Source of the DNA: Bolinopsis microptera
Lineage: Eukaryota; Ctenophora; Tentaculata; Lobata; Bolinopsidae
Direction: 5' to 3'
NCBI RefSeq assembly: GCF_026151205.1
Contig: NC_087082.1
Span: 11,098,707-11,162,706 of the forward strand
Length of the DNA stretch: 64,000 nucleotides
Shown: positions 1 through 61,700 of the stretch, in pieces
Layout: each line of letters starts with the position of its first letter
Position numbering within the stretch: position 1 is the first letter of the stretch
Position numbers and translations under genes: made by a program
The notes under the pieces: generated by a model
What the model saw: only the letters and a program-made list of their open reading frames with translations
Told to the model about the DNA's origin: nothing
Database searches by the model: none

Positions 1-1013
1 CCCCCGTGGCCCGGTCACGTGATATGATAACTCCGTCTCCTATCTCCGGCAACATCTTCTCTGTTTTGGGAAGCCGCTCCTCGTTAACAAGACCAGTTAA
101 CGATATCCTGACGGGTAATCTTAATTGAACAAATTATATATTTTTTAAATTGCTGATTTCCTTAGTCGGTAATATTATAAAAATATGGACTGTTATAAAC
201 ATGGTTCTTTGGACCGAAAAGAATTCGAACCCCACAATTTTAACTGCGACTTTTTTTTTCCCGCAATTATAACCACATTGCCGCTTTCACACCAAATTTA
301 ATATTATTTTCATTAGATATCCGATTGAAATTGTTCCTAGTTAACCACTCAAATTGAAAGGATGGGGGGAATCGTAGACAAATCTGACTTTTTGAACCAG
401 AACTAGCTTCAATCTAGCAAACAATAACGTGAGCATACTTCTGGACGTGAATGAAAGAAACATTAAGCATATTATGATTGATATACCAAAGGGAACATCA
501 AAATTTGACTCGGGGGGTTAAATTATGGGGGGTAAAAATATGGACTGTTATAAATATGGTTCTTTGGCCCGAAAAGGACCAAATTAGGCCCCAAATAATA
601 TTACCGACTAAGGTAGACGATATCAATGGGTTGATGATATCAATACGGCGGAATTCAACATTTTAAATAAAGTTGCTATCCAAGAAAATTGACTTATTCA
701 GTTGACTTATTCTATATAAAAATATTCAAACACAAATCACAACAATAAATTTGTTGACACGAGCCAATAGCTGTCACTACCACTGTAATTACAACTATTT
801 CATTGTGCACAGAATATAAGTACGCACTTCTAGCCTCTCAGAAGTCTTAGTAATTCATCACAAATATGCCCGAGTATTTATCCACAGTTTCGTGTTTAAA
901 CGGGAGTCATTAATCATGATGTTTGTTGTTATCTGTAAAGTCAAACTTTACACATCAGATCACGTACAAAGCAGATAATATCTCTAAAAGAGATACCTAA
1001 TCAAGATACGTAC
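1..1013. other. AT-rich intron of the left-edge gene
   Basis: No coding exon is recognised here. A segment of about 48 bp beginning AATATGGACTGTTATAAA occurs twice in direct orientation, near 183 and 539, with a few differences. The stretch probably belongs to the intron after the exon ending at 1014. Confidence 0.4.
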
Positions 1014-43443: not shown

Positions 43444-43571
43444 CTCCCCCTTAAACGTTAGATAAGATAAAACCCTCCCTAGGGTATTGAAAAATTAATG
43501 TAAAATAATTTAAACTGTAAAATAATTTAAACTGTTCTGTTAGGTAAATTAAATCTTAGTGGAACCGGTCG

Positions 43572-45047
43572 TCATTGACGATGAGTAGCCTTTGAATTAA
43601 TGATTCTAGGTGAGAATCTGTCTCCGAAGTCTTGTTGACAGAACGTAATGTCGTCTTTCGTGTAGCAATCAGTGGTATCAGCTGCGTAGAATTGTTTATC
43701 CCTGAGTAGAATGGTATGAGGTAGGTCAACAGAGAAGCAGAGTTCGTCAGGTAGGTTTTGAACAGGTACTGTGACAGGTGTATATGTTTGGTAGATGGAT
43801 CCACTTTTAAGTTTTGGTGCTGTAAGCAGGAAGTGGAACAGCAGGTGGTTGCGATGGCTTTGTGCTTTTACCATGTATAGTTCTCCCACCCTGTAGAGGA
43901 CTTCAGGTTGGGCCTTGTACAAGGTGTCCACAAAGTTAGGATTGTTCTGGGTTACAATTCTTAAGTCGTCAAGAGATAACACTTGTGGTATACTCGTCTT
44001 TAGCGTACCGTGTACCGGTGCGGAAAACAGTTGCTTGAGCTTGTACTCAAAATTCTTCAAGGTTTGTTGATAAATCACTACTGAGCTTAGTGACGCAATA
44101 TCACACTTGATTCCATGCATCTGTTCTTCTATCTGTTTAAGTCCAGATTCAAATAATTCCAGTATTTCATTCAGGTATTCTCTGGAATTCGTCATTTCTT
44201 CTTGTGCGACCGAAGCAAGTTGAGAGAACCTCCATTCCAAACTGTGCAGGTGTTCTTTTAGCTTCCGGTTTTCTGAAGGCGATTTTAGGATTCCGTAGAG
44301 GTGCCCCACTATAGGTATGTCTTCTAGGAAGTCCAGGCTACCCCAACTTCTCTTGTTTCGTGGTAGGTATACTGAGGTCAGATTGAGATCGTATGCCTCC
44401 TTGACATCTTCAAACTTCTGTATAAGGTGATCAACTGTTTCTTTGTGGTTGGATAAGGTAGCTTTCACCAGTGAATCAAATAGTGGATTTCCGTTTCCGC
44501 AGAGTTCTTCTTTAGTTACATTTTGAGTTTCCAGGATACAGTCCATCCTAGTAGAGAACGATACGAGTCTTGAATCCACAGCATTAGCACGGTAATACTT
44601 TCCCGTCTGTATGGTGCAGATTTTTGCATCATAGTCATATGCGAAAAGTCCACATCTTTTGTTGAGTAAACATGTGACGAAACAGTCTGCTGAAGTCTTC
44701 TCTTTTAGTATCTCTAGTACTCCGGCTTCAATAACAGCGAGTTGATGAATCCAGCAGCCATCAGTTGGGTTAAGCATGCTCGAGACCAGGGTCATGTTTG
44801 GTGAGCAAGGTAGAGCACACGCTTGTATCGGTACTTTAGGTACAGCCAGTTTTAGGAAAACCGACTGAAAAACAGTTTCAGTGCTTTGAGCAAGGATGTT
44901 CTGAGGAAGGAGCGCTAGACCCAGTTCTTCTAAGATAAATGGTGAAGCAGAGGTCACCATGTAGTCGTGGTTAGTAGACTCTTTTTTAGCAACGGCCAAT
45001 GTGTTGCCTATAATCAGGTAGGGAAGGCAGGTAGTGAGAGTACACAT
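43572..45047 (-). CDS. env: Env-like glycoprotein of the gypsy element
   Basis: The product has 491 residues. A hydrophobic N-terminus (to about residue 20) can serve as a signal peptide. The first 230 residues are Cys-rich with N-glycosylation sequons (for example NMT and NLT). A basic furin-type site, RNKR, ends at residue 233. It is followed by WGSLDFLEDIPIVGHLYGIL, a fusion-peptide-like stretch, and then a long heptad-rich helix (EHLHSLEWRFSQLASVAQEE). This order matches the F-type Env of errantiviruses and baculoviruses. I see no membrane anchor before the stop at 43572, which is unusual. Expression would need a spliced RNA; the splice sites were not located. Function as a fusogen is inference. 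Confidence 0.72.
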   Translation of the reverse strand: MCTLTTCLPYLIIGNTLAVAKKESTNHDYMVTSASPFILEELGLALLPQNILAQSTETVFQSVFLKLAVPKVPIQACALPCSPNMTLVSSMLNPTDGCWIHQLAVIEAGVLEILKEKTSADCFVTCLLNKRCGLFAYDYDAKICTIQTGKYYRANAVDSRLVSFSTRMDCILETQNVTKEELCGNGNPLFDSLVKATLSNHKETVDHLIQKFEDVKEAYDLNLTSVYLPRNKRSWGSLDFLEDIPIVGHLYGILKSPSENRKLKEHLHSLEWRFSQLASVAQEEMTNSREYLNEILELFESGLKQIEEQMHGIKCDIASLSSVVIYQQTLKNFEYKLKQLFSAPVHGTLKTSIPQVLSLDDLRIVTQNNPNFVDTLYKAQPEVLYRVGELYMVKAQSHRNHLLFHFLLTAPKLKSGSIYQTYTPVTVPVQNLPDELCFSVDLPHTILLRDKQFYAADTTDCYTKDDITFCQQDFGDRFSPRIINSKATHRQ

Positions 45048-45325
45048 TATGACACATGTGACCTATAGGGATTAAGGGTTTACAGGAAGTGATTATGGAT
45101 TTTTACAGCAGCAATGAAGCAAATACATGTTGGCCCGATGAGTAAATCACAGTGCTCGAATATGTAGCGCGGGTTGGTTAGCTAAGGGGCGCTACCTCCT
45201 AATGCGGACCAACCACTATAGGAGACCATAATCCACTCAGAGTGCCAACCCGTGCGAGCAATAAACAAAGTGCTGAGGGTATAATCACTAATTTGTGAAC
45301 TGTGGGTCTTTAGCGAGTAGAGCCT
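45048..45325. other. pol-env spacer of the gypsy element
   Basis: A 278-bp non-coding stretch between the pol stop and the env start. It probably holds the splice acceptor for the env message; several AG sites are present and none stands out. Confidence 0.5.
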
Positions 45326-48300
45326 TTATTTTGAGTACTTTATTGGTACCCTAGTTCTGAGGCTGTAAGGTATCTCTTGCGTGCTCGTGCCAGGATCAGG
45401 AGTAATAGACTGTTCGTCTTCTTCTTTATCTTTTACTCGAGTTGAGGTAGTTGTACCCATCATTAGTTTCATCATAGGTAAGTTTTCATCTTCATCAGTA
45501 GTACGTTTTTTCAATAACGGTGCCGGAGCCGGGCCAGGATCGTCCGGCTTGGAACAGTCAAGTTGAGTCTGGTTAGTCCTGAGACCAGCAGGAACAAGTC
45601 GCATTGTATCAAAGTGGACTACTCGTTCTTTGTCCGTCTTACAGTGCTGTACCAGGTAGGTCCATTTAGTGAGGACTTTCTTGATTATCCAAGGTCCACT
45701 ATAGTTGTTCTTGAATTTCCTGAAATCTTTGACGGAAGGGCTTAGTGGGATCCAGACTACTATTGTATCTCCTTCGGAATAGGTAGTGTGAAAACCTTTC
45801 TTTTTATCATAGGATGCTTTCTGCAACTGCTGGCTTGTTCCCAGGTTGGATCTCACCAGATCAAACAGTACACGCAGGTCCTGGTATTGTGCATAAGCGA
45901 GGTGAGTCTCTGATTTATACTCTTCAGTTGTAGTGGTGTCATACACTAGGTCTGCCGGTGTCCGCAACTCTCTGCCAAACTGTAATCGAGACGGAGTGAA
46001 TCCAGTAGAAGCATGAACTGCACTGTTCATGGCAAAAGCGACAGCATTCAGTTTGGTAGGCCAAGATGAGTATTTATGTTTAACCAACTTCTTCAGTATT
46101 ATGGCAATGTCTTTGTTAGCTCGCTCGCAGTCTCCATTCCCTCTGGCGTGATAGGCAGTAGTCTGGACTTTGTTTATGCTGAGAATCGAGTAGATGGACT
46201 TCATCAGCTCACCAGTCAAGTTATTAGCCTTGTCAGATAGTAACTTTTCGGGGATACCGTACACAAAAAACCAGGAGTCCATAAGAGCTTTAGCAATCTT
46301 AGCTGAGGTTCCATCAGTCAAAGGATACAGTTGCACGAACTTGGTAAATCTGTCTTTCATGGTCAGTATATACTTATGACGGCATGGACCATTAATGGGG
46401 CCTATTAAATCGATGCTGAGGAACTGGTTAGGCCTACTTGCAGTGAATAGCTTGAGAGGGGCTCCCGGTTTCTTCAGATAACTGCGATTGTTTAAGAAGC
46501 AGACCTCGCAGGTGTTGCAGTAGAGCTTCACAACTTTGGATAGGTAAGGGAAGTGGTACTTTTCACGTAGTCGGTGTAGAGTTTTGACTGGTCCTAGGTG
46601 ACCACAGGAGTCGGAGTCGTGGTTGTCTTTCATCAATGAGTCTCTCGTGTCTTTAGGTACACAGAGCAATTCCCTGAACTTCTTGGAATTTCTGAAGAAA
46701 TGCTTGTAGCATACTGAACCATCTTTGCTGAGGCAGTAGTGTTCGTACATCTGATAGTAATAGTTGAGGTCGTCACTATATGCAGATCGATCAGAATCTT
46801 TAGGTGGTTTGCCTCCATCTGTCAGCCATTCTTTAACTTTATTGAGATCATCGTCTTTGATCTGTGCTTCGTGAATTATACTGCTCTTGTAAGCAGATAA
46901 GGGGTTCTCAAAGGTTCCTTGATTTTCTTTCCACCTTTCGTTAGTTCCAGGAGTGGCATCAGCAGTGTCGAGGTTAGAAGCAGCAGGAGCGGAGATGTCC
47001 GCTGAATCAGAAGATGAGGGGGAAACAGTTAAATTAGTGTTTTCAGAGGAATTATGAGTGATTGTGGAAATATACGGTGTGTCCTGAGGGTGAGGATCGA
47101 CCAGGATCTCCTGGAACAAATAAGGTAGAGTAAATTCATCGATGTGATAATCGCAATTGGGAAAAGCAGTACGAGTGTCCCGGTTGTTAACAATAGGTAA
47201 ATTAACTGTCCTTATTCTAGGGCTATCTAAGTTTAAATTAAGATCTTTAGGAGAATCAGTAGAGTGAGGTTTGTGACTAGGGTAATGTGAGTGATCGTGT
47301 TGTTGAGGTGTATGCTGTAACCACCATCCATACAGACCGTCCGATTTAGAAGGTAATCTAGACAAAAGATCAGGTAATTCCATGAGTGCTCCTTCTTTGT
47401 ATTTGATATCAAAATCGTAGTCAGCTAACTCTAGGATCCATCTCATAATCACTGCACAGTTAGTCTTCTTCATGAAATTCTCATAGGTTATGGCTTTCAT
47501 GTCAACATAGACAGTGAACTTCTTATTAATAAGATAATAACGCCAGTGACTCACGAAATGTTTTAGTGCAAGGAACTCTCTCTTAAATGAAGGGTAACGC
47601 TGTTCAGTCTCAGACAGTATTTTGGAACCATATGCGATGGGTTTAAATTCCTTGCCAACCATGTGTCCGATCACTCCTCCTATACAGTAAGCACTAGCAT
47701 CGGTCATAAGAACGAACTCTAAATCGGGTGAGGGGAAGGACAGAATAGGAGGTGAGGTTAAGGCACTTTTTAGGACATCAATACTGCTAACTGCTTCATC
47801 AGTCAGAACGAACTTCTCACCCTTGAGTGTATCAGTAAGGCCTTTCACCAGCCCTGCAAAGTTATCAATATGTGGACGAAACCAGGATGCAGCTCCAATG
47901 AATTTTTGAACTTGTTTCTTAGTACGAGGGACGTCCATGTTAATCAGAGCTTCTATTTTTTCTTGGTCGGCTTCAAGGCCCTTCTCAGAAATGTAAGTGC
48001 CCAAGAATTTGATGCGCTTTTTAAATAAAATGCATTTTGAGGGATTGAATCGCAAGCCTGAGGGGCGTATCCGTTCGAATATGGTCCTAAGATTAGAGAT
48101 CATCTCTGGTATAGTTACGCTGGCAGATAAGATATCGTCGATGTATGCTGCCGCCGTCTCTGGAGGAAGCCCCACTAGAAGACGATCCAGTAAGTGCTGG
48201 AAGGAACTAGGCCCTCCACACAAGCCTAATGACATTCTGACAAACTCATAGAATCCGACACCAGGTATAGCAAAAGCAGTGTATTTTCTATGTTCAGGTT

Positions 48301-49636
48301 TAATGGGGATTTGTAGAAAGCCATCCTTCATGTCAAGGTTGGAGAAGAACTTCTTCCCGTGGCACCCAGCTGTTATGGTGTTCACAGCAGGTACACTACA
48401 GTAGCTTCGGCTGGAGATGGAGTTGAGCTGACGGAAGTCGATCACAATTCTAGTCTTACCCTTCCTTTTGAGGATGATGGCCGGTGAGTTATAGTCACTA
48501 GAAGAGTGTTGTATGATACCCGCATCTAATAGCTCCCTAATCTCATTAAGACAATCAGATCTCAGGTGAAATGGCACTCTTCGGTAATTAGCCCTCACAG
48601 GTTTATCACTGCTAAGGGGTATCTCATGATGTATCATATTGGTGGACCCTAGTTCACTTCTATCTAGGGCAAAAACTTCGGGGAAATCAGCTACCATCTT
48701 ATATGCCAACTGTTTCTCTTCTTCGTTAAGGTTCTCATTACTAGGTAGTCCCAACGCATTAACTATCATTTCTATACGACGAGGATTATTATCTTCCCAT
48801 TGGAACTGTTTCTTAACGCCATCAACTATGTTACTAGGTGTGTAAAACCCATCAGGGTCTTCTTCAGTGACTGTATTAATATTAGGGTTCAATGGAACTA
48901 AAGAGCCCATCACAAAGCCTTCAGGTAACCAAATCTCAGCCTCGTCACCACAGGAGACAGCTATTTCTGTGTGTCCATGTTCAACAAACAGAGTAATGCC
49001 GTCCACGTAATTAGGATCTCTTAGGAACGCGGCCTCCGGTGATACTTCGAAAACACAAGGGCCTGAGTAATTAGCAGTTAAACCTCCTGTTTCTAACACA
49101 ACACAATTGACGGTCTTGATTTTAGAGACAAGGGTACTATCAGAGCAACTAAGAATATATCTTTTCGGGGTAGGTTTGTCACTAAGGCTTGCTATGAAGG
49201 CGGAGTTGCTCAGTGTTTTCTGGCCAAAGTCCATAACCATATTATATTTTTCGAGGAAACGCTGCCCGAGGATGCAGTCTTCACTCAATTTCGACGTGAC
49301 TACCAGATCAGCGTGAAATAGAGAGCTGGCTAACCTAAATTCGGCTTCGGATATTATACCTAAGACCTGGAGTGGAGTACCAGTGACTCCGATCAGTTTA
49401 AAAGAAGCTGGTGTAAGTTTAGAAAGAAGGCCCTGTTTTATAACATAATCCTCACTAACTAGGTTCATGCTGGCTCCGGTATCTACTAATACAGTGACAG
49501 GATACCCAAAGATGCAAGTATGTAGATACACGTGTCCTTCACATGCCCGTATACTCACTGGTTGATTGACGTCTACTTGATCTATTTCTATGGAGCCAGG
49601 GGCATCGACCCTCCCGCTAGGGGAGGGACCTTCTAG
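45326..49636 (-). CDS. pol: Pol polyprotein of the gypsy element: protease, RT, RNase H, integrase
   Basis: The frame has no ATG near its start: it is open from the end of gag (49636) and is reached by -1 frameshifting. Numbered from the GTG at 49558, the aspartic protease active site is DTGAS at 26-30. RT catalytic residues are in LDMKDG (Asp409) and YIDD (472-475). RNase H begins with TDAS at 619-622. The integrase has an H2C2-type zinc region (GHLGPVKTLHRL, CNTCEVC near 1014) and a D,D,E triad at Asp1050, Asp1109 and Glu1145. A C-terminal GPWIIKKVL block matches the gypsy integrase tail. The order PR-RT-RH-IN is that of Ty3/gypsy. About 1,410 residues follow the GTG, with no internal stop, and all catalytic residues that I can check are present. 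Confidence 0.93.
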   Translation of the reverse strand, partial: LEGPSPSGRVDAPGSIEIDQVDVNQPVSIRACEGHVYLHTCIFGYPVTVLVDTGASMNLVSEDYVIKQGLLSKLTPASFKLIGVTGTPLQVLGIISEAEFRLASSLFHADLVVTSKLSEDCILGQRFLEKYNMVMDFGQKTLSNSAFIASLSDKPTPKRYILSCSDSTLVSKIKTVNCVVLETGGLTANYSGPCVFEVSPEAAFLRDPNYVDGITLFVEHGHTEIAVSCGDEAEIWLPEGFVMGSLVPLNPNINTVTEEDPDGFYTPSNIVDGVKKQFQWEDNNPRRIEMIVNALGLPSNENLNEEEKQLAYKMVADFPEVFALDRSELGSTNMIHHEIPLSSDKPVRANYRRVPFHLRSDCLNEIRELLDAGIIQHSSSDYNSPAIILKRKGKTRIVIDFRQLNSISSRSYCSVPAVNTITAGCHGKKFFSNLDMKDGFLQIPIKPEHRKYTAFAIPGVGFYEFVRMSLGLCGGPSSFQHLLDRLLVGLPPETAAAYIDDILSASVTIPEMISNLRTIFERIRPSGLRFNPSKCILFKKRIKFLGTYISEKGLEADQEKIEALINMDVPRTKKQVQKFIGAASWFRPHIDNFAGLVKGLTDTLKGEKFVLTDEAVSSIDVLKSALTSPPILSFPSPDLEFVLMTDASAYCIGGVIGHMVGKEFKPIAYGSKILSETEQRYPSFKREFLALKHFVSHWRYYLINKKFTVYVDMKAITYENFMKKTNCAVIMRWILELADYDFDIKYKEGALMELPDLLSRLPSKSDGLYGWWLQHTPQQHDHSHYPSHKPHSTDSPKDLNLNLDSPRIRTVNLPIVNNRDTRTAFPNCDYHIDEFTLPYLFQEILVDPHPQDTPYISTITHNSSENTNLTVSPSSSDSADISAPAASNLDTADATPGTNERWKENQGTFENPLSAYKSSIIHEAQIKDDDLNKVKEWLTDGGKPPKDSDRSAYSDDLNYYYQMYEHYCLSKDGSVCYKHFFRNSKKFRELLCVPKDTRDSLMKDNHDSDSCGHLGPVKTLHRLREKYHFPYLSKVVKLYCNTCEVCFLNNRSYLKKPGAPLKLFTASRPNQFLSIDLIGPINGPCRHKYILTMKDRFTKFVQLYPLTDGTSAKIAKALMDSWFFVYGIPEKLLSDKANNLTGELMKSIYSILSINKVQTTAYHARGNGDCERANKDIAIILKKLVKHKYSSWPTKLNAVAFAMNSAVHASTGFTPSRLQFGRELRTPADLVYDTTTTEEYKSETHLAYAQYQDLRVLFDLVRSNLGTSQQLQKASYDKKKGFHTTYSEGDTIVVWIPLSPSVKDFRKFKNNYSGPWIIKKVLTKWTYLVQHCKTDKERVVHFDTMRLVPAGLRTNQTQLDCSKPDDPGPAPAPLLKKRTTDEDENLPMMKLMMGTTTSTRVKDKEEDEQSITPDPGTSTQEIPYSLRTRVPIKYSK

Positions 49637-49642
49637 TTTTTT
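49609..49642 (-). promoter_or_regulatory. -1 ribosomal frameshift signal between gag and pol
   Basis: The heptamer A AAA AAC (49642-49636) is in the gag frame and directly abuts the gag stop TAG (49635-49633). Eight bases after the heptamer a GC-rich hairpin starts, with CCCTCCC and GGGAGGG arms (49627-49621 and 49615-49609) and a 5-nt loop. Slipping one base back continues in the pol frame without a stop. Heptamer, spacing and stem all fit canonical -1 frameshift sites. Confidence 0.88.
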
Positions 49643-50895
49643 GGAGCGTGTGCAGTAGGAGCATTAAATTGGCCTGACTGATGGTCACTATTGGGTCGAG
49701 AAAAGTTAGATGAGTGGTTCGCGTGATTGTAATTGTCTCGTTGACGACCTTCGTAGGGTAGATTAGCTGAGCCATTGTACGGAACATTCTGATTATTATA
49801 CCTAGGCTGGGCCTGTCCCAAAGTGTTATGCTGATAGGGTCTCTCAGTAGGGTTTTCAGGATGTTGGGTAGGTTCTGAAGCTAATGGTCCGGTATGCTGC
49901 TGATTCCGTAAATACCTGGCTCTCTTCCTACACTCTCTCATTATGTGACCTTGTATGCCACAGAAATTACATGAGATGTTACGAGATCTGGGTGCTGACT
50001 GTCGAGGTTCACGTAAGGGGCAATGAGATGCTATATGGCCAGTCCTTTGGCAGCTATAACATACTATTGGTGAGTTACCAAATTGTAATCCACGATCATT
50101 GGTGTAGTAACTTCCGGTAGCATTGTTAGTTGGTGGAAAACTAACGTTAGCCTGAGCAGGTGCGTGTTGAAATGGTAGAACAGAGTTATCAGGCGGTAGT
50201 TCAGGAGTGACCAGCTCGGATTTCAAGACTGACAGTGTCACCTTATCACCTTCTTTAAGTGTGAACCTAGCTCGATAAGCACTGTCTAACTTTACAGCCT
50301 CTTCGAGACATTCGGCGAAGGTACCCTCCTTACCGATCAGCAGGATTGAAATCTCGTCACGGAGGACTCCTCCTGATAAAGCGTCCTTTAAAATGGATTC
50401 CATGGCGACTTGCTCCTCAACAGTGTAGCCCAGCCTACCGAGGTCCCTTAGTCTCTCTCCAAATTGAGCAACAGTCTCGTCTAAGCCTTGTTTAGCCCGT
50501 TTTATTTCGAATCTGGCTTGAACGGCTTCTCTGGGTGAGCTTAAAGCCTTGATCACCATGGTTTTGAAACTGTCCCAGTTCGAGGTGAGCCCTGGGATGG
50601 ACACGATGGTGTTAAGTGATTTAGAGTCTAGGTACGTGAGAAACGTGTTTATAGCCTGATTTCCCTCTAGGCCGGTAACTGAACGGTAAGGCTCAAATGT
50701 GTCGAAAAAGGTAGTAATGTTCATAGCGGAAGGGTCAAATGGATCCGGTCTCCTGGAGCCTGCCACTCCAGCTCGAAACCCCATTTTAGCCTCGTTCACT
50801 GCAGACTCAGAGGCCTCTCTTTTTACCTTACGCATGAACTCTTCGACCTTTGACTTTTGGTCCTCATTAAGACCAAGCTCTTCTATTCCTGACAT
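49633..50895 (-). CDS. gag: Gag protein of the gypsy element, two zinc knuckles
   Basis: The protein has 420 residues. The helical capsid-type region spans about 55-215 (for example FFDTFEPYRSV, FLTYLDSKSL and VAQFGERLRDLGRLGY), the usual retrotransposon Gag pattern. Two CX2CX4HX4C zinc knuckles lie at 279-292 (CYSCQRTGHIASHC) and 309-322 (CNFCGIQGHIMREC). The tail is Asn/Gln/Pro-rich. The knuckles should bind the element RNA, and the protein should form particles. The gag stop sits in the frameshift signal, so a minority of ribosomes would make Gag-Pol. The start ATG at 50895 is the first in a frame open to the capsid motifs. Confidence 0.93.
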   Translation of the reverse strand: MSGIEELGLNEDQKSKVEEFMRKVKREASESAVNEAKMGFRAGVAGSRRPDPFDPSAMNITTFFDTFEPYRSVTGLEGNQAINTFLTYLDSKSLNTIVSIPGLTSNWDSFKTMVIKALSSPREAVQARFEIKRAKQGLDETVAQFGERLRDLGRLGYTVEEQVAMESILKDALSGGVLRDEISILLIGKEGTFAECLEEAVKLDSAYRARFTLKEGDKVTLSVLKSELVTPELPPDNSVLPFQHAPAQANVSFPPTNNATGSYYTNDRGLQFGNSPIVCYSCQRTGHIASHCPLREPRQSAPRSRNISCNFCGIQGHIMRECRKRARYLRNQQHTGPLASEPTQHPENPTERPYQHNTLGQAQPRYNNQNVPYNGSANLPYEGRQRDNYNHANHSSNFSRPNSDHQSGQFNAPTAHAPKN

Positions 50896-51262
50896 TCTCG
50901 GTAAATATGATCGTACGATTTGTACTTAAAGTAAGTTAAACAGCACGTGAGGTTACGAGAGTATGATAAAATGAGGAGCTGATTTGAGCTAACGTTAAAT
51001 TAACAACGGAGACGTAGATAGTTAGCTTTAAGTAAATGATACGTTCAATCGAGGTCGAACGTCTTGTGTGAGTAATTGAAACGTTTCTTCAAAATACGAC
51101 AATCCTAGCAGTACAAAATGATGACCTTCGTGAAAATGATCCGGTAGATTTATCAATGAAAGGCCTTGACTAATTAACTCTATGCACTGAACTAAGCGTA
51201 GAGCGTATTGGTAAGGGGTAAAAGGAGCAAAAGACTGTGTATTGCCCGGGTTCTCCACCACT
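50896..51262 (-). other. Primer site and gag leader of the gypsy element
   Basis: On the minus strand the 5' LTR end CTCTACA is followed after two bases by TGGTGGAGAACCCGGGCA, the primer-binding site. An additional 102-codon ORF (51336-51028) starts in the LTR and runs through the primer site into the leader. It has no recognised family but could act as an upstream ORF. Confidence 0.7.
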
Positions 51263-51759
51263 TGTAGAGCTACTCGGTTTGAATTTAAAAGGGGACTGTA
51301 TTTAGTTTGATATTGAAGTGAGTACAAAGGAGACAAGTTATATGAAATCCTAGTAGGATAAAGTAATGTGACTTGATAGTAATTTAGGGTATAATATATA
51401 AAGAATAACTAAGTCTTAAATAAAATAGCAACCCGTTTTAGGTTAGATTACTCAACGGTTGAAAGCCGTGAGATCAAGGTTGTAAAGGTAAAAGTTGAAT
51501 AACTTGTTAAAGAGGCACTCTAGTGCTCTCGTATCCCATATATATATAGCCCTCGATTAATTATCAATAGAGCGATAAGAAGGTATACTGGAGCTGGGTA
51601 AATTGCCCCTAATAAGGTTACTCCATGTTAATATATATATCTATTTCCTGGCTAATTAACTTCTCCATTAATATAATTAATATGATAAAAACTTAATAAG
51701 ATAAAACTTAACGTAATAAAAGTTTATAGGGGGGAGTCTCTGTCTTAGATTGTCCAACT
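51263..51759 (-). repeat. 5' LTR of the gypsy element, 497 bp
   Basis: Partner of 42947-43443. On the minus strand a TATA-like CTATAAACT lies about 30 bp from its outer end, a possible promoter motif. Confidence 0.93.
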
Positions 51760-52182
51760 GGGCCCTCTTGACAAAATAATAAGCTTATTCCAACTATATT
51801 TGGTTGTCCAGTATCTCTTATACACCAGTTGGAGTATCTTGCGAAAAAAGAACATGCTGCATCGCTTTTGGTAACCCGGGGACTGGTAAATTCCATGAAA
51901 GGTAAATCTCTTGCTACAACCGACACGGAATCGACAGATGAGCTCCAAGACATGTTAAAACAGCGTGTTTTGGAATATAAAGAACAACAAGAGGAGATAC
52001 TTACAAAGGTTGATAAGGATACTGCAAGGGTTTTGGAGCAGATTAGCGAACCATGGGGCTCAAATTGGCTCTCATGTTTACCACTTAGAAAACATGGTTT
52101 CGTTCTAAATAAATCTGAATTCAGGGATTCTATCAGATTGCGGTACAACTTAGATCTGGATCGTTTACCATCAAAGGCATAG
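51760..52182 (+). pseudogene. LINE-type ORF fragment, right half (interrupted by the gypsy element)
   Basis: The open part at 51829-52182 includes a coiled-coil stretch and then WLSCLPLRKHGFVLNKSEFR and DSIRLRYNLDLDRLPSKA. The WL..LPL..HGF.L....F.D...LRY pattern is typical of the region downstream of RT in an invertebrate non-LTR group. The zinc-finger part that normally follows is missing after a stop at 52180. A one-base frame change is needed near 51785, so the copy was already decayed. It continues the fragment at 42826-42946. Confidence 0.6.
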
Positions 52183-52533
52183 GACCTCAAGCCAGGACAT
52201 TTGAGAATCAGAAACTTCTATGCAATAAAATTGCTTATAAAAAGAAGCAGAATTACAACGATATTATAAATTATTATCGGTGTAAATTATCATGTTTAAT
52301 TAGGAAATTAATTTTATTTTGCATTAGATTTAGAGGATCAAGAAATACCTCAAACAAAACTTATGAATTATCTAACATGGACGATTTAGAATTTAACTCT
52401 TTCGAATCGAAAGCCAACTAATTTTTCAGTCCCATGGACTGGGTTTTATTTTTGCAATGATGATGTTGATAATATATAACCTGTAATACTATTCTGTATA
52501 TATCTAATTTCGTTTTCCAAAAAGAAAAGTCAT
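52183..52533. other. No feature recognised
   Basis: AT-rich DNA between the LINE fragment and the SINE. Confidence 0.4.
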
Positions 52534-52898
52534 TAGACAGTTGTAAATATCGAGAAACAACACAACACAACAACAATGGCGAACCTAGCAAGCTAGGATC
52601 GAGGGGCCGATCTCCTTTTATTTTGCGGTGCGGCCACGGTCCTTTCGGTACAGATTTCCCTGCAGCGCCAGCATAGTCGGGACGCAACCCCAGGCATATA
52701 CACTCATGTTATTTTCGCAGCTCTTATGAGAGCCAATATACCATTCACACCATGGTTTGGTGAATGACGGCTGTCCATCAATTTTGAAATCTTGGCCCAA
52801 CTGGGATTCGAACTCGCAACGTCAGGGCCAGTAGACAAGCAAATTAACCAACTAAGCCACTGAGCCACCATTCATAATAGACAGTTGTAAATATCGAG
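52534..52898 (-). mobile_element. tRNA-derived SINE with 21-bp target-site duplications
   Basis: Element body 52555-52877 on the minus strand, flanked by TAGACAGTTGTAAATATCGAG at 52534-52554 and 52878-52898. The head has RNA polymerase III boxes: A box TGGCTTAGTTGG (52859-52848) and B box GAGTTCGAATCC (52815-52804), 34 bp apart as in a tRNA. The body of about 200 bp follows, and the tail is a GTTGTTGTGTTGTG repeat. The perfect TSD implies a recent insertion. The 3' region may match the tail of a partner LINE, which I could not identify. Confidence 0.92.
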
Positions 52899-55050
52899 GA
52901 CTTGGACTATAAATTGAGCTGAGGACAAGAAATTCAGTAAACTCGAATTATTATTAATTACTGTATTATTATTAATATAACAATGTTTTGTGTTTTGGTT
53001 ATATCGGTGCTGATCAGCAGTTTTTTGATTTATCATAAAGTACATGTATATTGTATAACGTTTCGTAAGAACCAAAAGTAATTTTAATTATCAATAAAAT
53101 GATTACAAGCGGTGACTTTTGAGTTTTTAGCTTTTTGGATTAGGATAACTTGTTCGTTTCATTTGGTATAAAGGTATAAAAAAGTATGGTTGATTTTTCA
53201 ATATAATCCGACGTTTCTGATTAGGAACCGACCGGATATCCGGCTGAATCCAGATCCGGCCGGATATCCGGCTTCAATATTGAATATCCGGTTCCGGCTC
53301 CGGCTTCGGTTTCAAAAATGTTGCCGGGTTTTTGCCAGATATTTCTTTTAAAAATTGATTTCTAAAATCTTGAAATGCATAGTTTTGTTACATTTTAACT
53401 CGAATCCTTAAAAAATTAAAAATAGTTTGACTAGGTGCGGAGTTTGAAAAACAAAAAAATTTTCGGCTAATAATGAACAGGGCCGGGTATAGCATGACAC
53501 GTTAAGAAAAGTGGTTTTAAGAAAAACTTTGAAAAAATTTTGACTTGGAAAATTTTCGGTCCGAGTCAATCTGCAATCTCGATTAGTACCTCCCGTATCG
53601 AGAGCTTCAGCTTCCGAGCTCGTAGTCGTACGTTGCAAAGGGGAGGTCTGCCTTCCGAGATCGCATTACCAATTACCAGGGGGAAGCCTCGAGTCCAAAA
53701 TTGTGTATCCCCCGGGCCCCGGCTATAAACGCAACATATATAGTATATAGAGGAAAACCGAACCCTATTAGTATTACGAACAGTCACTATAAAGTGCTTG
53801 TTACTATTGTGTTGTCACTATATAGTGCGATTACCACCCTGCCCTTTTGACCCCCTATAGATGTGAAATCCGCAAGGCACAGTAATGGCTGGCCTCCCGT
53901 AAAAGCAAAATTTGACGGACATGAATATCAACAAAAGAAGTGGAAGAATTATGATATATTAGTTGAACTCTATTATAGTTGCATAACTAAAACAAACTGG
54001 GATACTTCTAGTGTGTCAGTGTGGACCACAGTGTGGCACTTACAGTTACAGTCACGGTTGTTAGGTGAAATTTCATATTATTGTCAATATAATTGTGACA
54101 GCTTATTTTTTAACAATCTTATAAATGACTCCTAATTGTTCAATAAACAAGTTCGACAGATCTAGATATTGAAAATGAAAGCAGACCGAATCAGTGAACG
54201 AACCAAATGTCCAATCAGCTCCCAGTTGGCTCCTAGTTTGTAAACAACAGAATGAATAACATTAACAGGAAAATAAATATTAATTAAATATGAAATCTTA
54301 CAAGGAAAATATAATTAAATATGAACGTAAAATTCATAAGCGTGGTCGCAAACTATTGTATTCTGAACAAATGCGTCTGGAAATGAGTAAAGCAACATTT
54401 AAGACACAACATTTCTCCTGATAAGAAATTTTAAAAAACTACCTTATCACTTATACGTGTAGAAATGTTGTGACAAATAAAACAGTGTGATGCTGCTTAA
54501 ATATCAGTCACTGCTGTCTACTAGTTAGTGACTGTTCATATGTAAGCTCTCCTCCAAATATGTACTTGGGTTTATATACGCGCAACAATTTCGTCATCAG
54601 ACGAAAGTTAAGAACTTTTGAGTTGCAGAGTTATTTGAAAAATGCCGGTCCTCGATAATGGATAAATTGCGGTGACCTTGATCTGCTTTATATTATAATT
54701 GAATTCATTCTGCTCGAGATCAACGATCTGAAGAACTGACAAAGCTTTCCGATCTTCTTTTGCGGTAACCTTATAATTACGGTGCAAATTACATTTAGCC
54801 ACCAAGACGCTACCACGATCTTATTAGTCAAAATAACATAGTTAACAAAATGCAGAAAGAAAGAGTAAACTTGTGACGGCTCCACAACTTGTTTATTTGC
54901 ATATCTTTTATTGCCTCGAAAATTATCTTAAATGATTCCCAGTTTGATTTTGCTCGGCGTACATATGACATCAATTGCATGCAGAATCAAGCTAGTACTA
55001 TACATTATACAACCATGATTGCATACGTATTATTTCATACGTATATCTTG
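52899..55050. other. No gene recognised; CCGGATATCCGG-rich repeats
   Basis: 53225-53300 carries repeated CCGGATATCCGG and CCGGCTTCGG motifs, and a GGCCGGATATC piece recurs near 55398. Short ORFs here (for example 53863-54135) have no family signature. The rest is AT-rich. Confidence 0.45.
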
Positions 55051-55134: not shown

Positions 55135-55639
55135 AGGGGTCGTTCACATATAATATTACGTAATCAGCCGAGGGGGGAGGGGGGTTTCCAAATGCATACG
55201 GTTGACTACGGGGGGGGGGGGGGGGGGGGGTTTCGGTCGTTGATTACGTAATCAAAATTTTCTTTTTTACCCTCTAGAATGATAACAATTTGACAATATT
55301 TTAATCCAAATTACATTCAATTTTACTCTGATAGTGATAAAATTTAGAAATTGATCGAATATCCGGCTATATTATAGTAAGTAGTTTAGAAGGTGCTTGG
55401 CCGGATATCATAACAATGATTTCGGCTCATCACGATAGCATGATCAGGGTAGCATGAAACGTAGAGAAAAGTGTTTTCTAGGAAAAAAGTCAAGGGGGGG
55501 GGGGGGGGTCAGGCCATGATTACGTAATAATAATATTGCTGTCAGGAGGGGGGGGGGGGGGGGTTGGGTCTTGATTACGGTTGGGGGGTAAAATTAAAAA
55601 TTGCTCAAATATTGATTACGTAATATGTGAACGACCCCT
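55135..55639. mobile_element. MITE with GGGGTCGTTCACATA termini (copy 1)
   Basis: Ends AGGGGTCGTTCACATA (55135-55150) and its reverse complement (55624-55639), followed inward by ATTACGTAATCA on both sides. It contains G-runs of up to about 20. No ORF. Outside it, both flanks match the CGCG-rich element seen at 26220-26435, so it inserted into a copy of that element. Confidence 0.85.
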
Positions 55640-55844: not shown

Positions 55845-56070
55845 TCCTCCCTCCGTGATTAGTTTTACACATAGCTTTTGTGTTAAAATTACACTAGTGT
55901 AATCATTTTGAAACCCCTCCCTCACCCTCATCGCAATGTAGTTTCCATCGGAAGGGGTCGTTCACATACTACGTAATCAGCTGAGGGGGGGGGGGCGTTT
56001 CCGAATGATTACACTACCGTAATTTTGACACAATAGCTATGTGTAAAACTGATTACGGAGGGGGGGCCGG
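55845..56070. repeat. Imperfect inverted repeat with a TTTTACACATAGC core
   Basis: Left arm 55845-55930 (CCCTCCGTGATTAGTTTTAC and so on) and right arm 55980-56070 (ending TGTAAAACTGATTACGGAGG) are inverted relatives. The second MITE copy is interleaved with the right arm. Confidence 0.75.
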
Positions 56071-56139
56071 GGGGACTGGGGAGGGGGGGGGGGGTAAAAA
56101 TGTTCCAAAAAATTATTACGCAATATGTGAACGACCACT
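55953..56139. mobile_element. MITE with GGGGTCGTTCACATA termini (copy 2)
   Basis: Ends AGGGGTCGTTCACATA (55953-55968) and TATGTGAACGACCACT (56124-56139). It is 187 bp long, with G-runs and no ORF. Same family as copy 1, 313 bp away. Confidence 0.85.
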
Positions 56140-56317: not shown

Positions 56318-58061
56318 TCAATGAAGCTCGTGGGCGTCGTTCAGGTACATGGTGGTCAACATACAGAACACATAGGCCTGTACTACAGCGACGGCAATCT
56401 CCAGAATACACACAGGGACTAGAGCTGCGGTGCAGAGGACCCCACCGATAGCGCCACCTGCAGTTCCGCTAGCCAGCATCTGGGCACCGAAATCAGAGAT
56501 GATATGCAGGATCATGTGGCCAGCAGTCAGGTTAGCTCCAAGACGAACTCCAAGGGAGACAGCCCGAGAGAAGAATGAGATCTGAAAAAAATGTATTTTG
56601 TAAGTCATTATTAGATTAAGGTAAACAAGATGTATAAGCAAAATATGATAAGGATACTTTAACTACGTTAAACAAAAGTGATATCAAATGAAGTTGGCTC
56701 GTAAGATGTGTCAACAAAAATATCAAAATTCTTCATTAAAAATTATATTCAGTCGTATTTCAAAATTCTTGTATCGTTTTTTAATCGAAAACAACAAGAA
56801 GATAAATTTAAAAACTCACCGTCTCAACAGGAACAAGCAACAGTGCCAACCCAACAGGTGCTCCAGGAGGGAAGAAGAACGAGGCGAAATCCAGCTTGTG
56901 TTTTGCGATGCATTTTATTGTGAGCCCAGCGATCAGAGTGGTACTCATAGCCACTGTGCACCCGATAATCTAAAAGTTATGACGATGTTTTTTTGCAGTT
57001 GCAAAGTTTATATCAGACAGAATATCTGAGATGACATTCTCAATTCTCAAATCTATGATTTCAATCAGCCCAGTCAGAAAAGTATTCGAATGGAGGCAAG
57101 TGAAATTGATATGAAATTGATATCTGAAATGTACCTGAGTAGGCATCTCGATGTAAGGCAGAAGGTTTGTGACATTGCAGAAACCGATGGTGGTGAAGAG
57201 ACCAAGGGCGAAGGGGAAGTAACGGGCACCTTCCTCTCCCAAGTTCTGTTTACACAAATCCTGAAAAGCAATCGTTATAAGTTATAATTGTACAAATTGT
57301 CGCCTGTCCGACGTCATTTGATGCCTCGCTTTTAAGCTCGTAATTCTTCTTACATCTTGTAAAATTTTGAACTTCTTCGCAAGTAGATTATTAAATCGTT
57401 CTTGGCTCAACTAGCTTTTAACTTATTCCCACGAATGCAAACGTTAGTTTGGAGAAATTATGTATCGGACCGCGCGTAAAGTAGGTGCGTGTCCGGCGCG
57501 CGTTCCTAAATGCTGACAGAGAACATTACCAGTCGGATGCTTAGATAATAAATACACCTTTCAAACTAGCAATAGGTTGTCTCTATGGGAGCCAGGAGAG
57601 TTCTCGGAGGAAGAAAACTATTCATCCAGACAACTAGCAAGGAAATTATGACGGGCCAAAAAATCCCTTTATAGAATTAGTTGGTGAAAGGAAATTGTTA
57701 TTGTTGTAGGCAGTTTACAGGGGGGAAATATACCACATTGCAATGGCCATTGACAATGTCCGAGTAAGCTAAATTAGAATCGTGACTCATTTTCATCCAT
57801 GATAGTAATAGCAAGGAATAGGATAAATACTCAATGATTACTTACTTGGACGAAACCGTAGAGCTTTTCTTTGGCAGCCTGGCCTCTTGTGGGGATAACC
57901 CTCATTCCCTTGGCGGCTTCAATCAGCGCCCCAGAAGCAGAAGTCTCGTCTTTTTGGACATGGGTAGTATGGATGTAGTTGGTGAACTGGATAGGAGCTG
58001 CTAGTGCGCGGGCACCAGTGCACAGACCCTGCCGCAGCATAATTCTGGAGCAGCTCAACAT
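56318..58061 (-). CDS. ATP6: Nuclear-encoded mitochondrial ATP synthase F0 subunit a
   Basis: The four exons are 58061-57846, 57260-57135, 56969-56820 and 56581-56318. All introns are phase 0, and the product is 251 residues. Subunit a forms the proton half-channels against the c-ring in the inner mitochondrial membrane. The first 37 residues carry Arg/His/Lys but no Asp or Glu, as in a matrix-targeting presequence. Then come LYGFVQDLCKQNLGEEGARY, FPFALGLF and NLLPYIEMPTQ; the middle block with FASFFFPPGAPVGLALLLVP and VET; and SLGVRLGANLTAGH with the essential Arg (177). The C-terminal helix is EIAVAVVQAYVFCMLTTMYL. The usual first membrane helix, before the VIPTRGQ segment, is not present. 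It is not a NUMT: there are introns, a presequence and an intact frame. AATAAA lies about 15 bp after the stop. Confidence 0.93.
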
Positions 58062-58761: not shown

Positions 58762-61700
58762 TCAACAGAACTGAAATAATAATGGTTACTATTTTGGGGC
58801 ACATCACAACAACAAAAAATGAGACGAAATTTCTGTCCAAAGAAATAATAATCTTACTCTAATCAACTCTAATCAACTTTATAACTAACTTTAAACTTAC
58901 TAATCAATAAAATTTCTAAAACGTACCTTCCATCTATGACCACAGTGCTCACAAACACAGAAAGTAGTCATGGGTTCATCCGCACTTCTCGTCTGCAGCT
59001 GATTATAAAGCACATCACTCTTCTTGCACTTCCCGCAAGTCAAGAGATTGGTTTTAGTTCCGCTTGTTACTGCTATCTGCGCCTCTCTTATCGCTTCCTT
59101 CTGGTACTCGTTCCTTTTTTCTCGCATCCTCTGGCTTGCCATTTCCTGATAGGATAAAGTTAGTATATGATAAAATGCGATCTCTGTCGTGGAGAGATTC
59201 GAAGTTGGTGGTTGAGATCGAGAGGGTATATATAACTTTAGGAGACCTCAACCACTAACCACATACAATCCTGTACGTGCTAAAATCAAGTATAGTTTGA
59301 GCTTCGAGAAGAGTAAATTTTCGAGTGAAAAATAATGCTCCTGCTTGATTGCAGTAGTTGAGCACTTTTTGGGAAACCAAGCAACAACTAATTATCAATA
59401 ATTAATATATATTGTTTATACTGAGCAAAGATCTCACCTCAGGGGCCATCTTAGCAACCATCTCGGCCGACACGCCGCCAGTTAAAACCAGGGTTATGAA
59501 ATCTGGATTCTTTTCGTCTCCCAAGTTAGACACTCTGCTTCGGATCCTGGGAGGTACATTTTTTCAAACTTCAGCTTTTCAATTTTAAAAGTCTATCGAC
59601 ATGAAGTGTTAAAGAAACCGAGTCAAGGCATCACCAAACATTACCAAGAAAGTATAACCAAATGTTTACCGATAAAGTGCTGTATGAAATTTGACTTTAT
59701 TTATTATTATTTATTTATCTATTTGCGAAAAATATTGAAGACAAACAATGTCGACTATGGATGATTAATATTTCTTATCTGACCTGTTTTTATACTTCAT
59801 ATTAGTCCCCCTCATCTCCTGAAATATACATTTCTCAATATCAGACGCTACTTGATACACGCTGACTTTAGCTTCGCCACCATCCTCAACCCTTCTCTTC
59901 TTCATTGCGTTGTATAGCAGGTCTCTACATTTGTTCCTGAACGGTGCTTATTAAACAATGTTATCAATTTAAATTGAAGCACATCGTTTAAATACCATTC
60001 TATGTTTCATTTCGAAACACTTACAAACTGCATTAAATTAAAATCTAATTCGTGTTTAACTTTCTGACAATGAACTAAACAAACGAAGCGCCAATCTATC
60101 CAACATATTTTTAATGTATATTTAACATGTTTAACATATTTAACATATTTAACATACTAACATATTTAACACTTTAAAAGGTCTGACTGCCTACCTGACT
60201 GGGTCCTGCAAATCTTCTGCACCCTCTGGGAGATCCTCCTCTTCCTTTGGAGAAGGGGAGAGAGCAAGAGCTGGCTCCATTTCTTTCACCTGAAAACACC
60301 TTTTATAAACCTTTTATAAACATCTTCTACTTTGAAAATAACTGCAGTTGTTATAGTATAAACAATAACCAGTGACCAGTGACCAGCCACTATCCTTATC
60401 TATATTCTATTTTATTAAATATTTAAATCTTTATCTACAGAACAGTTCGCCTCATTTCTTTTTGGAAAAGAAATTGCCATTGGATACCAAGAGCTATTTA
60501 AAAAATTTTATAATCAGTAAGATTGTGAATAATTTGAAACTTACCGGCGCTACTTTTTCTTCTGATTTCAAGTTTTCTTTAGGTTTGGTGTTAGGAACTG
60601 AAAGATAAAAACCGACGTAGAGTAAAAGAAATGGATAATTGGTTTCAAACCGATGAATAAACTTGTGGAAAAACACTCATTTAAAAGTCATATACATTAA
60701 AAAACCTCCCTTGTATTCATCAGCACCAATGGAGGACCCCAAGGTGATAGTGTTTCAGGCCTCTGTTTCACAGTCACTCTAGCTGGTGCCTGCTACCACC
60801 TGCGTGCCGTGACGCTGCGACCAACCCCCCCTATAAGCCCTAGCGGCATGCCTGAAGAAGATGCCTACTCTGATGACATCGACTATCTTGGTGAAGACAA
60901 AGATGCTCTAGAAGCCCTCCTCCCTATCGCTACTAAGGTGTTCAAAGAGTGGAATCTGAATATTAATGAATCAAAGACAGAGTTTGTACACGTCTACATA
61001 GCTGGGAAAGATGAGGTCATGGATGATGGTAAACCCCTTAGAATGAATGAAGAATGGTGCAGTAGCAAGTTGTTGGGTTCTCTGCTAGAAAGTAGGAAAG
61101 ATGTCACCAGAAGAATCATGCTAGCCAATGTAGCATTCCAGAACTTCAAGAAGGTCTGGTGCCAGAGTAAGATCCCCCTACAGAAGAAGCTGAAGGTCTA
61201 TGAGGCTCAAGTAGTATCTATCCTCATGTATAACTCTAGTTGCTGGGGAATGCCTAAATCGTACTGGGACAAACTAGATGCATGTCACCGTAACCACCTC
61301 AGAAAGATCATGAATGTCAGCTGGCCACGCAGTATGATGTCCAAAGATACCCTCTACAAACAGAGTAACTCTACCCCTATGTCTGAGCGTGCTGAGTTAT
61401 CTAGGTGGAAGATGCTAGGACACATACTGAGGAGCGATGAAAGATCACCAGCTCAAGCTGCGCTGTGTTTTGCTGTCGAGATGTGTAGTGAAGTTGGTAG
61501 ACTCGGGGCTCACAGACGTAACCTCCTACACCACCTGAAGGTTGACCTCTGGAAGCGTTTCATCTTGCTGGAGTCGTATGATGATATTCTCAATTTGAGA
61601 GAACTTGCTAGTGACCGTGGTTATTGGAGTAAATTGTTTAACTTTATACTTGAGTACAAGTCAATTTGACTATTGGGACATATAATTTTACAAAGGATCA

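Follow-up and report, generated by a model that had tools for sequence, protein, structure and literature searches.

The window, as the whole 64-kb stretch of DNA analysed here is called, carries on its minus strand a predicted gene for subunit a of the F-type ATP synthase (ATP6). The frame runs from the A of its ATG at 58061 to the final base of its TGA at 56318, and the four exons joined give 756 nt, or 251 codons followed by TGA. Exon 1 (57846..58061, 216 nt, residues 1-72) comprises the start codon, a presequence-like N-terminus and the start of the amphipathic helix aH2, the Arg-bearing and acid-free segment recognized by its residue composition being residues 1-37 (57951..58061). Exon 2 (57135..57260, 126 nt, residues 73-114) encodes the end of aH2 and aH3, exon 3 (56820..56969, 150 nt, residues 115-164) encodes aH4 and the start of aH5, and exon 4 (56318..56581, 264 nt, residues 165-251 and the TGA) encodes aH5 with the essential Arg177 (codon 56543-56545) and aH6. 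Introns 1 (57261..57845, 585 nt), 2 (56970..57134, 165 nt) and 3 (56582..56819, 238 nt) are all GT-AG and all phase 0, with the 5' ends GTAAGT, GTACAT and GTGAGT and the 3' ends TTTCAG, TTTTAG and TTTCAG, respectively. GC content is 0.50-0.54 in the exons vs 0.24-0.39 in the introns, and reaches 57.5% at codon third positions. A first-pass annotation of this DNA had described four phase-0 exons reading into one subunit a; its coordinates proved exact, with GT-AG introns and an intact frame. Intron 3 is probably old, since in the fragmentary proteins P0005, P0020 and P0082 a non-homologous stretch ending in Gln stands directly before the exon-4 sequence ISFFSRA, as fits an intron at the same place whose phase-0 3' splice site, with its CAG, had been read through.

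The gene for this core proton-channel subunit, atp6, is kept in the mtDNA by almost all animals. Here it is adjoined upstream by the exons of a TFIIS-type transcription elongation factor (58903..59947, minus strand), a same-strand neighbour that is not part of ATP6, and a gag-pol retroelement lies further off, so the locus is nuclear DNA. Both spliceosomal-type introns and nuclear neighbours thus accompany ATP6 in the window, and the earlier description of a nuclear gene with introns is borne out by the three introns and the TFIIS-type neighbour.

Mobile-element sequences are found at several places in the window. The retroelement (45329-50925, minus strand) consists of a zinc-knuckle gag-like frame and a 1445-residue pol frame with protease, reverse transcriptase, RNase H and integrase; as to LTRs, no direct repeat of at least 80 nt was found in 43500-53500. 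Two MITE-like elements (55135-55639 and 55953-56139) lie just downstream of ATP6 and have in common the terminal inverted repeats AGGGGTCGTTCACATA, which are 100% complementary over 17 nt and 88% over 25 nt. The second of these elements is overlapped by an 81-nt imperfect palindrome (84%), and long poly-G runs occur in the same region. A partial reverse-transcriptase frame on the plus strand (60701-61666) scores 27.0 bits with RVT_1, below the curated cut-off of 29.6, and Rfam gave no match at gathering scores within the 64-kb window.

The spliced protein matches PF00119 (ATP-synt_A) with an E of 4.3e-47 and 161.2 bits vs a cut-off of 33.9, residues 51-245 aligning to positions 22-217 of the 217-position profile, and solved subunits a match it from E 1e-30 in sequence comparison. 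At the level of sequence, a chance origin of the match is excluded. The core helices are present, including aH3/aH4 and the long aH5/aH6 hairpin. Arg177 lies within the motif GVRLGANLTAGH, noted earlier as the essential Arg motif, and is identical in 148 of 148 aligned rows. The closest protein is ACHWQZ_G018137 of Mnemiopsis leidyi (P0001, annotated as a hypothetical protein), of equal length and 95% identical, in keeping with the ctenophore origin proposed in the first-pass annotation; the two differ at 13 of 251 residues, which marks the window as coming from another species or strain. Two further full-length relatives, P0002 (82% identity) and P0003 (63%), are taken as ctenophore by similarity, and their complete frames sit on contigs of 914 and 938 nt, which therefore look like spliced transcripts, as the size fits. 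Thirty-one of the 39 proteins from the homology search were aligned. Judged by these comparisons, the window comes from a lobate-type ctenophore, either Mnemiopsis or a near relative, and the gene is its nuclear ATP6.

Five sequences, ctenophore or ctenophore-like, made up the profile used to seek relatives outside the ctenophores; 8000 candidates were scored, and the nearest named ones among the best 120 of 1996 matches are hexacoral mitochondrial ATP6 proteins at 44-49% identity. The tree of subunit a that the first-pass annotation had proposed was built by maximum likelihood from 27 hand-chosen rows (26 of the 152 fetched proteins and the window protein). It places the ctenophores (100/100), on a long stem of 1.35, inside a 14-row clade of animal mitochondrial ATP6 with support of 99/97. 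Seven bacterial-type rows stand apart (100/99); one of them (P0027) bears the name Hyalangium in the source and the other six are labelled by annotation or resemblance. Tree position and hexacoral identity together point to transfer from the animal's own mitochondrion, that is, to an ATP6 derived from its mitochondrial atp6. The relocation of ctenophore ATP6, to which the first-pass annotation had pointed, is already in print: the gene is stated to be missing from the mtDNA and nuclear in Mnemiopsis and Pleurobrachia (PMC6991124, PMC5924465, citing Pett 2011 and Kohn 2012), and an ATP6 transcript is described from Beroe forskalii (PMC6991124). The ATP6 genes of Mnemiopsis leidyi, Pleurobrachia bachei and Beroe forskalii are regarded as the same gene as the window copy, relocated in the same event.

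Conservation was assessed over 148 aligned rows, made up of the window protein and 147 of the 152 fetched proteins (the fragments P0004, P0005, P0020, P0040 and P0082 were dropped). Besides R177, all 148 rows share N101, E163, L178, N181, G185, E225, Q232 and F236, among them the Asn, Glu and Gln partners of the essential Arg (N181, E225 and Q232), and H186 is shared by 147. The 13 differences from the Mnemiopsis protein are unevenly spread, with 7 in the first 41 residues vs 6 in the 210 that follow (a cut chosen afterwards; Fisher p 0.0015), or 5 vs 8 when the cut is placed at residue 35 (p 0.022). A faster-changing N-terminus of this kind is what one would see where a presumed targeting sequence under loose constraint precedes a conserved enzyme. 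Two positions in the window copy stand out. Residue 157 (codon 56841-56843, minus strand) is Leu in the window and Pro in 143 of the 148 aligned subunits a, the window copy being the only full-length ctenophore row with Leu, and residue 84 (codon 57225-57227, minus strand) is Ala vs Tyr in P0001-P0003. The two substitutions could be variants, errors in the sequence or the onset of relaxation, and because both depart from the relatives the gene could be a relaxed or second copy of ATP6.

Two other accounts of the gene were weighed against this evidence. Horizontal acquisition from a bacterium, in place of transfer from the animal's own mitochondrion, would agree with a nuclear location and with the wide distribution of subunit a among bacteria, but it is disfavoured both by identity, the nearest named outsiders among the matches listed being cnidarian mitochondrial ATP6 (44-49%), and by the position of the ctenophores within the animal mitochondrial clade (99/97), and it is considered exceedingly improbable. 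The departures from the near-invariant Pro157 and from the Tyr84 of the relatives would fit a nuclear copy with little function or none, whether numt-derived or a decaying paralogue, with a working atp6 elsewhere. This is judged very unlikely, as the frame is complete, the three introns are proper, length and catalytic residues are conserved, only 6 differences from Mnemiopsis fall in the 210 residues after position 41, and ctenophore mtDNAs are without atp6 so far as they are described in the available text of two reports (PMC6991124, PMC5924465). The window gene is very likely the working copy of ATP6; the functional status claimed in the first-pass annotation is well supported by conservation among the full-length relatives, by intact channel residues and by the faster divergence of the N-terminus.

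The N-terminus itself has a presequence-like composition, much as the first-pass annotation had it: the first 35 residues contain 3 Arg, no Lys and no Asp or Glu, the first acidic residue is Asp38, and the best 18-residue moment is 0.45. Canonical animal subunits a are not known to carry a cleaved presequence of the kind presumed in the ctenophore.

A structural point that had gone unnoticed when the four-exon subunit a was first described is that the first transmembrane helix, aH1, appears to be gone. By hydropathy and by structural model it appears to have been lost from the window ATP6 and from three other full-length ctenophore or ctenophore-like sequences, two of these four (P0002 and P0003) being assigned to ctenophores by similarity. 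The maximum 19-residue Kyte-Doolittle hydropathy before P57 reaches 0.68 for the window protein, 0.58 for P0001, 0.73 for P0003 and 1.15 for P0002, compared with a mean of 2.12 in 141 other sequences, whose minimum is 1.14 (P0075, a truncated record with 22 residues before the P57 column) and whose next value is 1.47. Three of the 144 other rows (P0117, P0130 and P0139) have fewer than 19 residues before that column and give no value. The best stretch in the window protein covers residues 7-25, inside the presequence-like part, and a canonical membrane-crossing aH1 was not recognized ahead of the conserved Pro57 segment. The value for P0002 is close to that of the truncated outside record P0075, which counts against the loss.

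Structural comparisons bear on the same point. The sequence alignment of yeast subunit a with the window protein starts at chain residue 51 of 6b2z_a. An AF2 model of P0001 (31-row alignment, mean pLDDT 72.6, pTM 0.62) has helices at residues 59-103, 112-138, 153-201 and 205-248, short helices at 3-12 and 39-51, which lie within or beside a low-confidence stretch, and a four-residue helix at 141-144. No helix of membrane length is modelled before residue 59, and pLDDT is below 50 at residues 1-6 and 8-44. When the untrimmed model was compared with solved structures (VIA-align, 50 rows), 20 of the 50 alignments started at model residue 1 or 3, the low-confidence N-terminus being laid over the first-helix region of the target; with yeast 6b2z_M, for instance, model residues 3..251 aligned on 28..249, which also counts against aH1 loss.

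An exon for aH1 might in principle have been missed. Phase-0 internal exons of at least 19 aa number 3, 0 and 1 candidates in introns 1-3, with a best hydropathy of 0.15 and none of them hydrophobic. Intron 1 contains a hydrophobic stretch (from 57667), which is not among the phase-0 exon candidates, and a hidden aH1 exon was rejected. Alternatively, subunit a could be split, with aH1 supplied by a separate gene elsewhere in the nucleus or by an as yet unassigned frame of the ctenophore mtDNA. Membrane-protein frames without assignment do occur in ctenophore mtDNAs (PMC5924465, PMC6991124), and cox2 is known as a mitochondrial gene split into separate pieces (PMC5664110). Those mtDNA frames, however, are described in the available text as unlike each other and unlike known atp8, the ATP6 introns offer no phase-0 exon for such a helix, and Polytomella manages without a membrane-crossing first helix (PMC5747523); a split subunit is thus held to be unlikely, and outright loss of aH1 is preferred. 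No report of aH1 loss in ctenophores was found in the accessible portions of the literature, and the original papers (Pett 2011; Kohn 2012) might state it. The absence of aH1 is possibly an unremarked structural feature of ctenophore ATP6.

The helices that remain are less hydrophobic than those of other subunits a, an effect that fades along the chain. Hydropathy of aH3 is 1.32-1.39 in the ctenophore rows vs a minimum of 1.84 in 144 others, that of aH4 is 1.57-1.83 vs a mean of 2.20, and that of aH5 is 1.42-1.54 vs 1.85, with no deficit at aH6 (2.31-2.52 vs 2.45). Overall GRAVY is 0.59-0.65 in the ctenophore rows vs a mean of 1.11 in the others, and does not fall below their minimum of 0.54. 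Ctenophore mitochondrial COX3 is described as unusually hydrophobic, with a T-rich bias in the mtDNA (PMC10118304), and mutation bias may contribute to the lower hydropathy of the nuclear copy; because aH6 is spared, a general mutation bias is not expected to be the full cause.

Subunit a is nuclear-encoded in some other eukaryotes as well, and the two examples considered here, Polytomella and Toxoplasma, likewise have a reduced N-terminal end. The protein of Polytomella has a 94-residue targeting sequence, and its first mature helix rests on the membrane and does not cross it (PMC5747523). The alignment with the P0001 model begins at Polytomella residue 95 or 96 in all three Polytomella rows, residue 95 of 9evd_M aligning to model residue 47 and residue 95 or 96 of 6rd4_M and 6f36_M to model residue 51. 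A nuclear gene is shared with Polytomella and Chlamydomonas, as would be the targeting sequence presumed in the ctenophore, whereas the green algae underwent a separate transfer and have a much longer targeting sequence; the Polytomella structure contains an N-terminal amphipathic helix, whereas the ctenophore model has a low-confidence helix at 39-51. Toxoplasma gondii encodes in its nucleus a minimal subunit a without aH1-aH4, a truncation that its authors tie to gene transfer (PMC7785744). The ctenophore protein resembles it in having a nuclear gene, an apparent loss at the N-terminal membrane helices and reduced overall hydrophobicity, and differs in that only aH1 appears to be missing. 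The canonical six-helix subunit a of yeast, bovine and human, unlike ctenophore ATP6, combines a membrane-crossing aH1 with a mitochondrial gene. For Trypanosoma brucei 8ap7_A, the product of a mitochondrial gene, the structural alignment starts at residue 17 and the first helix may also be short; brevity at the N-terminus is thus no sure sign of nuclear transfer.

The reading favoured here, held with considerable confidence, is that the window carries the nuclear ATP6 of a lobate-type ctenophore, derived from animal mitochondrial atp6, with a presequence-like N-terminus, a complete aH2-aH6 core and a loss of aH1 that is proposed to have made import possible. Translation of the mRNA would take place in the cytosol, with the Arg-bearing, acid-free N-terminus directing the product to the matrix. 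The absence of aH1 and the weakly hydrophobic aH3 would keep the chain from being targeted to the ER and from stalling in the import channel. Insertion of the aH2-aH6 core into the inner membrane would follow, and there Arg177 of aH5 would, as in other F-type enzymes, gate the passage of protons against the c-ring. Loss of aH1 would be the change that let ATP6 move to the nucleus, and the contacts made by aH1 in other enzymes would be lost or assumed by other subunits. COX2 is known to become importable when its first helix is removed or weakened (PMC5664110).

A broader proposal, to which we give slightly less than an even chance, is that ATP6 can become nuclear only once its membrane-crossing first helix has gone, a requirement that would have recurred. 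The loss would have arisen independently in green algae (Polytomella), in apicomplexans (Toxoplasma) and in ctenophores as an early animal branch, with a cut at nearly the same structural position in ctenophores and Polytomella. In ctenophores it would accompany the disappearance of ATP8, and their ATP synthase should then differ from that of other animals in a remodelled aH1/ATP8 corner and dimer interface. The major dimer contacts of the yeast enzyme run through subunits a and i/j (PMC9553925), and subunit 8 contacts a helix of subunit a (PMC6131620). As far as the available text of two reports goes, no atp8 has turned up in ctenophore mtDNA or in the nuclear genomes of Mnemiopsis and Pleurobrachia (PMC6991124, PMC5924465). 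There may be a link between the loss of aH1 and the disappearance of ATP8, and the dimer interface may have been rebuilt.

Hydrophobicity is a frequent explanation for the retention of atp6 in the mtDNA of nearly all animals, and the shedding of aH1 could ease the import of ATP6. If the first helix is the price of the move, this would bear on the nuclear expression of ATP6 more generally; one study saw no integration of a redesigned human ATP6, and in another atp6 and atp8 sometimes rescued mutants (both in PMC10809612). Ctenophores offer a natural experiment on the relocation of ATP6 in an animal, and on the account given here, if true, the membrane sector of their ATP synthase should be altered.
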